This document shows positions 30,880 through 32,519 of a DNA stretch of 64,000 nucleotides, piece by piece. The notes beneath the pieces were generated by a model. It searched no databases, was not told the DNA's origin, and worked only from the letters and a program-made list of their open reading frames with translations. Position 1 is the stretch's first letter. Each line of letters starts with the position of its first letter. This DNA comes from Pantoea agglomerans (lineage in GTDB: Bacteria; Pseudomonadota; Gammaproteobacteria; Enterobacterales; Enterobacteriaceae), in NCBI RefSeq assembly GCF_021397715.1, contig NZ_CP090207.1, positions 4,030,001 through 4,094,000 of the forward strand, given 5' to 3'. Position numbers and translations under genes: made by a program.

Positions 30880-31078
30880 AAAAAAACACCTGCCATTGGC
30901 AGGTGTAAGATCAGGTCGGTAAGACAACCGGGAGGTACCTGACTCAACGTGGTGTCCGTTAACCCTGTAAGACTTATGCGATACAGGCAGGCAGACAACA
31001 GGTACCTAAAAATTGGCTCTGCATCATTCCCAGGTTTATGTTGCATCAGCAAACATAAGAGGTGGAATGAGCATCTAC
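30880..31078 (-). ncRNA. glmZ: Small regulatory RNA GlmZ
   Basis: On the minus strand the first bases GTAGATGCTCATTCCA match E. coli GlmZ, and inner blocks such as CACGTTGAGT and GACCTG recur in order. Length is about 199 bases (E. coli 207). The 3' end is a rho-independent terminator, ACACCTGCCA paired with TGGCAGGTGT (30886-30906), then seven T. GlmZ base-pairs with glmS mRNA with Hfq to raise glucosamine-6-phosphate synthase; RapZ directs its cleavage by RNase E. In E. coli glmZ also follows hemY, so position supports the call. Confidence 0.93.
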
Positions 31079-31302: not shown

Positions 31303-31391
31303 CTGCCGATCCAGTTCATACTGCTGGCGAAATCAAAGTGGGATGAATCTGGCTACACGCGCAGACACGCTTCTACCATTGGGCAGGCTTC

Positions 31392-31573
31392 AGGAAGCAT
31401 ACGCCTTTCGCAAAGACGCAAAAAACGCCTTCACTGGCGGGCTCAGTGCGGGCGATTACGCACCTCATCCCTGAGGTGCGCCCGTAGCCAGGCTAACGCT
31501 TTGCGTTGTTTAAAAACGTTCCCCGCGGTTTTGTCTCTGGCCCGCGATGCTTTGCTACAGGCGTATGCTTCCT
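31392..31573. repeat. Long-range inverted repeat with inner hairpin
   Basis: AGGAAGCATACGCCT (31392-31406) is exactly inverted at 31559-31573, and GCAAAG inside each arm is also conserved. Within, GCACCTCA (31460-31467) pairs with TGAGGTGC (31472-31479) across four bases. No coding sequence is convincing. It may be an extragenic repeat or an uncharacterised structured RNA. Confidence 0.5.
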
Positions 31574-31677
31574 TCGCTTCACGTCTGGCAGACACATCAG
31601 GTACTTAGATTAGCACTCCAGACGGTTGCCAGCCCAAACCAGAGTCAGTCTGCCCGCAATGCAAATGCTCAACGCGC

Positions 31678-31778
31678 AGGGAATAGGGTCAGAGGAGGAA
31701 AGCGTCCCGCGCCAGGGACGGCGCGGGCCGAGCGGCCATGGATGGCATTAGCGCCTTTCCGATCTGACCGTATTCCCT
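31678..31778. repeat. 101-bp imperfect palindrome (MITE-like)
   Basis: Outer arms AGGGAATAGGGTCAGA (31678-31693) and its inverse (31763-31778) differ at one base, with a further GGAAAG match inside. The interior holds two smaller hairpins: CCCGCGCC/GGCGCGGG (31706-31727) and GCCAT/ATGGC (31734-31745). The form suits a non-autonomous repeat, but copy number cannot be seen from one window. Confidence 0.5.
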
Positions 31779-31865
31779 GTGCAGGCTCGAACTTACAGCT
31801 ACGCTGTTCCTCTGCCCCCTACCCCAATCTCCCGCAGAAATTCTCATCCTCTTTTTATTCAGCCG

Positions 31866-31894
31866 AAAAAAAACCTGTCTTTTCAGACAGGTTT
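31866..31894 (-). terminator. Second copy of the tRNA operon terminator
   Basis: AAACCTGTC and GACAGGTTT with loop TTTTCA, followed on the minus strand by eight T. It belongs to the duplicated block downstream of tRNA-Pro. Confidence 0.8.
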
Positions 31895-31900
31895 CTAAAA

Positions 31901-31994
31901 TGGTCGGCGAGAGAGGATTACCCGGCTCTGCGAGCCGCGCCCTGCGGGCCGTTGCTGAAGCAACGTTGTCTCGCTACGCTCGGCTCAAACCTCC
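31901..31994 (-). pseudogene. Interrupted tRNA-Pro 3' fragment
   Basis: On the minus strand the T-arm 5' strand GGAGGTTTGA (31985-31994) and the T-arm/acceptor 3' strand with CCA (31901-31919) match proM, but 65 bases lie between them in the T-loop. That insert is made of small hairpins: GGCTC/GAGCC (31924-31936), GCCC/GGGC (31939-31949) and CGTTGCT/AGCAACG (31950-31965). Everything 5' of the T-arm is absent, so it cannot be a working tRNA. Confidence 0.65.
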
Positions 31995-32029
31995 TTCGGA
32001 GATTCTCATCCTCTTTTTTTACTCAGACG

Positions 32030-32058
32030 AAAAAAAACCTGTCTTTTCAGACAGGTTT
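32030..32058 (-). terminator. Terminator of the argX-hisR-leuT-proM operon
   Basis: AAACCTGTC (32035-32043) pairs with GACAGGTTT (32050-32058), followed on the minus strand by eight T, seven bases beyond the tRNA-Pro CCA end. Confidence 0.9.
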
Positions 32059-32064
32059 CTAAAA

Positions 32065-32141
32065 TGGTCGGCGAGAGAGGATTCGAACCTCCGACCCACT
32101 GGTCCCAAACCAGTTGCGCTACCAAGCTGCGCTACTCGCCG
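32065..32141 (-). tRNA. proM: tRNA-Pro (anticodon TGG)
   Basis: A 77-base tRNA with encoded CCA. Acceptor CGGCGAG pairs with CTCGCCG, the anticodon stem CTGGT/ACCAG encloses TGG, and the T-arm is GGAGG TTCGAAT CCTCT. Last gene of the tRNA operon, as in E. coli. Confidence 0.97.
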
Positions 32142-32161
32142 ATTTTTTTAACTGTTTTGCC

Positions 32162-32248
32162 TGGTGCGAAGAGAGGGACTTGAACCCTCACGTCCGTTAA
32201 GACACTAACACCTGAAGCTAGCGCGTCTACCAATTCCGCCACCTTCGC
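32162..32248 (-). tRNA. leuT: tRNA-Leu (anticodon CAG)
   Basis: An 87-base class II tRNA with long variable arm, acceptor GCGAAGG and encoded CCA. The anticodon loop contains CAG within CTTCAGG. Third gene of the operon. Confidence 0.97.
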
Positions 32249-32264
32249 GTATCCCAGCAAAATC

Positions 32265-32341
32265 TGGGGTGGCTAATGGGACTCGAACCCACGACAACTG
32301 GAATCACAATCCAGGGCTCTACCAACTGAGCTATAGCCACC
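32265..32341 (-). tRNA. hisR: tRNA-His (anticodon GTG)
   Basis: A 77-base tRNA including the extra 5' G that marks tRNA-His; acceptor GTGGCTA pairs with TAGCCAC, anticodon GTG in GATTGTGAT, encoded CCA. Confidence 0.97.
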
Positions 32342-32442
32342 ACAATACTTAATGTTACAAGTTCAAAACCTGCAGCATCTGAATCTTTACTGCCAACTAA
32401 CGCGGTAAATCAAACCACCGAAGCTCATGCGCACAAACGATA

Positions 32443-32519
<77 letters not shown>

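Follow-up and report, generated by a model that had tools for sequence, protein, structure and literature searches.

Two long palindromes in the spacer between glmZ and a tRNA operon of Pantoea agglomerans are, on firm sequence grounds, two copies of one dispersed repeat family in opposite orientation, here called elements A and B. We put the probability at about 0.5 that both are insertions of a non-autonomous mobile structured-RNA element of the YPAL family at terminators, carrying putative CsrA-type hairpins. The window in which they lie is a stretch of 64,000 nucleotides (contig NZ_CP090207.1, positions 4,030,001 to 4,094,000, forward strand), and all coordinates below count from its first letter. 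Its features are as follows, with R1 being a covariance model of the core of A and R2 a model of YPAL.

31350..31617, minus strand: element A, long YPAL form, approximate full extent, with ends estimated from bounded copies
31389-31457 and 31532-31579 (arms), 31456-31532 (core), minus strand: nhmmer matches of A, which is among the 76 training copies
31392..31415: left arm of the outer stem of A, an inverted repeat; the outer arms covary between copies
31550..31573: right arm of the outer stem of A, an inverted repeat
31454..31537, minus strand: core of A, RrB-homologous module of four hairpins (R1 81.2 bits, the core being a training sequence)
31460..31479, minus strand: hairpin 4 of the A core, CTCA-GGGA-TGAG, with a CsrA-type loop, from sequence
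31619..31826, plus strand: element B, short YPAL form, approximate full extent, with ends estimated against the terminator-bounded copies L119 and L007
31674..31782, plus strand: conserved YPAL body of B with 31-nt arms (RU-2 alignment; long-form profile; R2 115.6 bits, B being in the R2 training set)
31709..31724, plus strand: apical hairpin of B, GCGCCAGGGACGGCGC, GGA in the loop (sequence, fold, short-form alignment)
31734..31746, plus strand: second hairpin of B, GGCCATGGATGGC, CA-TGGA-TG, from sequence
31901..32030, minus strand: RtT / TLR element behind tRNA-Pro (Rfam RF00391, 97.1 bits)
31871..31894, minus strand: perfect terminator-like hairpin (inverted repeat), one of two near copies flanking the TLR
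31901..31919, minus strand: 19-nt copy of the tRNA-Pro 3' end (original at 32065-32083), from sequence

A sequence-only reading of this region had reported two long inverted repeats enclosing smaller hairpins in a gene-free spacer, and all of these are present. Palindrome 1 has perfect 15-bp arms (31392-31406 / 31559-31573) spaced 152 bases apart, which extend to 24-nt arms (31392-31415 / 31550-31573) that are 92% complementary. Palindrome 2 has 16-nt arms (31678-31693 / 31763-31778) that are 69 bases apart with one mismatch, nested in 31-nt arms (31674-31704 / 31752-31782) of 77% complementarity, and smaller hairpins are found inside both. The stretch is flanked by glmZ (30880-31078, minus strand) and by four tRNA genes (32065-32519, minus strand), and its open reading frames are short or run through the repeats, none making a convincing gene. 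The impression of more structure than in ordinary spacer also stands, with z-scores of -5.25 for 31380-31600 folded as DNA and -4.12 for 31640-31800 folded as RNA, each better than 200 of 200 dinucleotide shuffles. Furthermore, both explanations offered at the time are borne out together: accumulated repeat elements agree with the 38 matches that a self-search with the 501-bp region gives in its own genome and with the one to seven elements found at the same locus in six genomes, and a structured RNA agrees with strong covariation across the family alignments. The outcome named as fatal, a single unconserved copy without covariation, did not arise. What had been missed is that a single element, in two forms and two orientations, makes up both palindromes, and that it is related to YPAL and RrB.

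Element A consists of YPAL arms and a 77-bp core, while short forms such as B are without the core. RU-2, published as a 168-nt sequence from Yersinia, is the same element as YPAL according to PMC2759123 and PMC2229807. Aligned directly with it, B scores 78, against a maximum of 27 in 500 shuffles; direct alignment of A is not significant, with scores of 15 and 19 and shuffle maxima of 24 and 30. A is nevertheless tied to RU-2, because a profile of 76 long forms (A included) from which the core was removed finds B at 79.1 bits, both halves of A, and RU-2 itself at 47.2 bits (E 1.4e-12). The Pantoea family thus shares with the YPAL / RU-2 of Yersinia (about 167 bp) its body sequence, its fold, its intergenic position in many foldable copies (28 R2 matches in the own genome, and none of 140 classed elements inside called genes), and, in the sister copies L119, L210, L126 and L007, duplicated terminators, i.e. 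targets that span or adjoin dyad symmetry. It differs from YPAL in having a long form with a 77-bp core, and some loci have two to four core matches spaced 78 bases; moreover, two of its duplications, at 31 and 39 bp, are longer than the 3-26 bp given for YPAL in PMC2229807. In Candidatus Pantoea gossypiicola, such tandem cores with two to four matches at that spacing were seen at L153, L159, L177 and L182, and at L153 the match coordinates place the array inside one element. Of four aligned Pantoea agglomerans plasmids, two have long and short forms in tandem. Two sizes differing by an internal insert are also described for the Correia/NEMIS elements of Neisseria, together with 24-bp TIRs and TA at the termini (PMC2229807), and our comparison with these is by description only. 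Lastly, the Yersinia sRNA Ysr224 (Rfam RF02770) matches B over all 107 model positions (31699-31801), but antisense, on the minus strand, and at 47.9 bits, below the cut-off of 70.

What would these hairpins be recognised by? The CsrA consensus is given as ruACArGGAugu, with GGA in the loop, in PMC5694010. We searched 168 sequence-deduplicated Pantoea elements for hairpins of the form CA-N-xxx-YG plus three more pairs, where xxx is any of the 64 loop trimers. With GGA as the trimer, 241 hairpins were found in 160 of the 168 elements on the sense strand and none on the other strand, and the next loop trimer occurred three times. Exactly one strict GGA hairpin is present in 91 elements, at least two in 69, and none in eight, although these counts are not independent, because the copies share descent. 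A itself has lost the GGA of its second arm hairpin. Among YPAL-type matches in other families, all 19 (from 11 loci) have A-N-GGA-Y closed by three pairs, amounting to 28 GGA hairpins, and no other trimer exceeds 3. For the core in other families, GGA is found in hairpin 4 of 32 and in hairpin 1 of 33 out of 35 rows, one row being a 23-nt fragment; under the strict A-N-GGA-Y rule, which excludes many NGGA loops that are one base shorter, GGA counts in just 15 of the 35 rows, followed by CGA in 8. In these families the stems differ and the loop is mostly kept, but R1 and R2 matches are not blind to the GGA loop, since both models contain it. As such, the CA-N-GGA-YG hairpins resemble the CsrA consensus, the family as a whole has several GGA motifs in hairpin loops as would a CsrB-like RNA, and we infer from this resemblance that the hairpins may bind CsrA. 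A CsrA gene is present in the own genome and in all of the 33 element-bearing genomes chosen for this check (all 20 others of the order with R2 matches, 4 Pantoea and 9 with R1 matches), which adds little weight, because to our knowledge CsrA is near universal in these bacteria anyway.

The core of the long form leads to a second known RNA. R1 was built from 33 cores, 15 from Pantoea (A included) and 18 from other genera, without E. coli; fragment L229, cores that read like copies from rRNA or tRNA operons, and some others were left out of its training. It finds RrB of E. coli with 66.1 bits (E 4e-14) and has no match in a 751-base control stretch inside rrlB (23S rRNA). A sequence-only profile of the core sees RrB weakly (13.4 bits, E 0.064), so that it is the structure model by which the core of A is shown to be homologous to RrB. 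RrB is an E. coli sRNA lying between the two rrn terminators; it binds CsrA in vitro with an affinity of about 100 nM and gives no shift once three GGA are changed, while its deletion or its overexpression had only modest effects, both in the same direction (PMC8144298). Likewise, sister YPAL elements lie between duplicated terminators. R1 also matches the RttR copies of E. coli (19.2, 17.9 and 15.1 bits) and, within the window, the RtT/TLR at 31916-31995 (25.6 bits, E 1.7e-4), a distant relative of the A core. Like RrA, RrB, RrF and the other TLRs of E. coli, the A core has sequence-structure homology to RrB, and in most relatives the loops of both hairpin 1 and hairpin 4 contain GGA. Unlike these, it sits in a YPAL element instead of behind 5S or tRNA. 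A is not classed as a TLR, because it lacks both a position behind a tRNA or rRNA gene and an 18-19 bp copy of that RNA's 3' end, whereas the RtT at 31901-32030 has both. That RtT/TLR is bracketed by near-identical direct repeats of about 80 bp (31840-31919 / 32002-32083), each made up of the terminator of the tRNA operon and the 19-nt tRNA-Pro 3' end, an arrangement that resembles the terminator duplications of YPAL.

R1 matches occur in 35 of 119 genomes of the order (the own one included), with at least 34 in the richest genome, 38 candidates having been scored in each. One core-bearing stretch from another genus, L222, scores 42.8 with Rfam RF02902 (AaHKsRNA22, cut-off 39.8), whereas the window's own core gives no match to that model at E up to 1. 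Two further arrangements were observed: at L260 and L261 (genome G075), core copies lie directly behind what appears by eye to be the 3' end of 23S rRNA, and at L288 1300-1830 (G273, another family) three core copies follow in a row amid extra CA-GGGA-TG hairpins outside the model match.

Direct evidence of insertion comes from sister copies. Terminator hairpins are directly duplicated without mismatch over 26 bp around L119 and over 31 bp around L210 (both from Pantoea agglomerans), and with one mismatch over 39 bp around L126 from P. latae and over 23 bp around L007, a copy in the own genome. Around A or B no target duplication was seen by eye. More broadly, flank duplications that score at least 12 accompany 23 of 158 elements, compared with 3.7% for mismatched pairs; several of those 23 are array repeats or similar, unequal terminators instead of target duplications. 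Among 35 Pantoea genomes, 20 have flank matches at the L210 site that overlap by 27-32 bp and thus one terminator, i.e. an empty site; G025 carries the element (the match runs through it, at a contig end), and in the other 14 the flanks do not meet at the site among the matches listed. As to the L007 site, G000, G016 and G020 have the element, G025 has it in a form longer by about 80 bp, a reverse-strand match represents it in G033, G026, G031 and G015 are empty with flank overlaps of 32, 29 and 23 bp, and in the other 27 of 35 genomes the flank matches end before the site. Empty sites therefore have one copy of the terminator, and the element inserted with target duplication.

Placement was classed with a simple codon-usage gene caller for 140 of the 168 elements, after 28 at locus edges had been dropped. 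Of these, 103 lie between convergent genes, 18 are in tandem sense and 19 in tandem antisense, and none is divergent or inside a gene. Control intergenic regions from the same loci were convergent in 42, tandem in 212 and divergent in 98 cases, and by bases 13% convergent and 32% divergent. In tandem contexts there is no orientation bias. Eight annotated plasmid stretches placed elements between convergent fumA and oxidoreductase genes (two), between convergent hydrolase and pirin genes (one), and at a tandem bgl-EIIB site (five). At the latter (L112-L115), Pantoea agglomerans strains differ by single or doubled and short or long elements.

Taken as a mechanism, the reading that we favor runs as follows. 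Sister copies show that the element inserts into a gene's rho-independent terminator or next to it and duplicates that terminator (23, 26, 31 and 39 bp in the four clearest copies). They also show that it lies at the 3' ends of genes, in most cases convergent ones, and there it would be transcribed by read-through; its functional form would be the folded RNA. Within that fold, the loop of hairpins closed as CA-N-GGA-YG is retained on one strand, and the long form, such as A, has the RrB-homologous module in its inner hairpin. These GGA hairpins are predicted to bind CsrA/RsmA, so that each transcribed copy would be a small CsrA-binding 3' tag, and the copies together might act as a dispersed CsrA sink or tune the stability of upstream transcripts. 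Against a sense RNA selected at each site speaks the unbiased tandem orientation, because such an RNA would predict a bias, as does the antisense match of Ysr224 to B.

The main rival is a purely selfish YPAL-type element whose mobility needs the fold. Here the fold and the GGA loops would be recognised, as RNA or single-stranded DNA, by a mobilising enzyme, and copies would survive where they are harmless, at gene ends. Precise insertion with target duplication, tandem contexts without orientation bias, and the range of 0 to 70 matches among 36 Pantoea genomes all agree with this, and the transfer mechanism of such elements is called not elucidated in PMC2759123. However, selfishness alone leaves unexplained why the loop resembles the CsrA consensus, and why the core is homologous to RrB, a CsrA-binding RNA of the rRNA operon. 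We hold it to be quite possible, if short of even odds.

Placement beside gene ends and terminators would also be expected if the hairpins were useful to the host by stabilising or insulating upstream transcripts, as proposed for YPAL and ERIC, with no special protein involved. A possible influence of YPAL on the stability of upstream transcripts has indeed been put forward (PMC2229807). A plain stabilising hairpin could do with any loop, but here the loop stays constant and the stem varies, and we find this alternative somewhat unlikely.

Returning to the structured-RNA element that we favor, its fold has been retained across copies. The sequence of the outer stem drifts and its pairing is kept: in 20 aligned copies the inside is conserved, and the outer arms are variable and largely complementary. 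For 78 non-redundant long forms, the pairing of arms from the same element scored 13.46, compared to a mean of 8.18 and a best of 9.06 in 2000 permutations, with the own arm among the best 5% of partners in just 34 of the 78. Within subfamilies, arm pairing was reached in 0 of 5000 permutations for each of the three larger ones, and in 25 of 5000 for the fourth, which has six copies. In 25 diverse long elements (alignment A2), 32 of 56 pairs have changes on both sides, exceeding 500 of 500 shuffles on five measures, with the structure derived from that same alignment. The R1 training alignment of 33 cores has both-side changes in 13 of 25 pairs (equalled by 1 of 500 shuffles; covariation score by 0 of 500), and the short forms (alignment A5) have them in 19 of 31 (0 of 500). 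Outside the genus, core matches (alignment A4; 35 from other families plus E. coli RrB) change both sides in 18 of 25 pairs, as reached by 10 of 500 shuffles, with the number of pair types reached by 114 of 500 and the covariation score by none of 500; the 19 YPAL matches in other families (alignment A6) do so in 27 of 31 pairs (0 of 500). It should be noted that A4 and A6 lean toward R1 and R2, because these alignments were fitted to the models. Counts of G.U versus A.C favor the sense strand in A2 (46:24) and the outer arms (67:39), and do not in A1 (16:19) or A5 (10:8).

Such pairing could also arise without selection, if template switching in quasi-palindromes copies one arm onto the other. 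Strains of one species that differ by several paired bases at once in their stems, as seen at the bgl-EIIB plasmid site, are what this process would leave. It would, however, neither hold loops constant nor affect internal helices alike, and both-side changes are found in 9 of 9 helices of A2, 4 of 4 of A4, and 3 of 4 of both A5 and A6, where the exception consists of two pairs. We therefore consider template switching an improbable source of the covariation.

By direct DNA search, 29 of 60 genomes were matched (36 of the genus including the own one, and 24 of other families), all of them from the genus, with some of these matches falling on the terminator/tRNA end of the query and not on A or B. 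E. coli genomes gave no match in a DNA-level search with a Pantoea long form. Among plasmid records 41 matched, 40 from Pantoea and one from Enterobacter, and in the 40 plasmid rows listed there is no annotated gene under the best match. An exact 25-mer scan of the species collection returned 105 stretches, all with Pantoea titles. R2, which was built from 26 sequences including B and RU-2, matches 29 of 36 Pantoea genomes, with 28 matches in the own genome, 70 in the highest and none in seven when 105 candidates are scored per genome, and across the order it matches 21 of 119 genomes (the own one included) from 12 of 59 genera. The 2.4-Mb Pantoea genome G014, small as it is, has 32 YPAL matches. 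At the glmZ-tRNA locus there are two elements in the own genome, seven in alternating orientation in G015, two in G020, one partial in G031, four in G033 (where glmZ lies beyond the stretch compared), and at least one in G026 (at a contig edge). The intergenic position and alternating orientation in the clusters of G015 and G033 recall REP/BIME-type repeats moved by a RAYT transposase, but neither their length nor the YPAL homology nor the long target duplications suit such repeats, and we reject this very improbable candidate, as the genome has a single PF01797 (Y1 transposase) match, in a 135-aa frame on contig C2.

As far as the open-licence literature shows, YPAL as a kind of element is already known, and what is new is that the family occurs in Pantoea, that its long form has an RrB-like core, and that YPAL is linked to CsrA-type loops; in that literature we found no paper joining CsrA with YPAL and none joining Pantoea with YPAL. 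Compensatory changes or terminator targets may already be described in the paper that introduced YPAL (J Bacteriol 2006, 188:7876).

These findings join three things that the papers considered here treat separately: a MITE-like repeat of Yersinia, a CsrA-binding sRNA of rRNA operons, and unexplained intergenic palindromes of Pantoea. We tentatively suggest, with less than even confidence, that YPAL and the RrB/TLR-type module form one mobile, order-wide system of CsrA/RsmA-binding RNA tags that land on terminators, duplicate them and in this way set GGA-hairpin RNA at the ends of genes, and that RrB with the puzzling dual rrn terminators could be a domesticated insertion. If the hairpins do bind CsrA, the tens of copies scattered through a genome would amount to a heritable and mobile tuning of a global regulator, and it would become testable why rrn terminators are dual. 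Even without CsrA, the terminator-targeted insertion, the long duplications and the empty sites provide a clean case for finding the mobilising enzyme.
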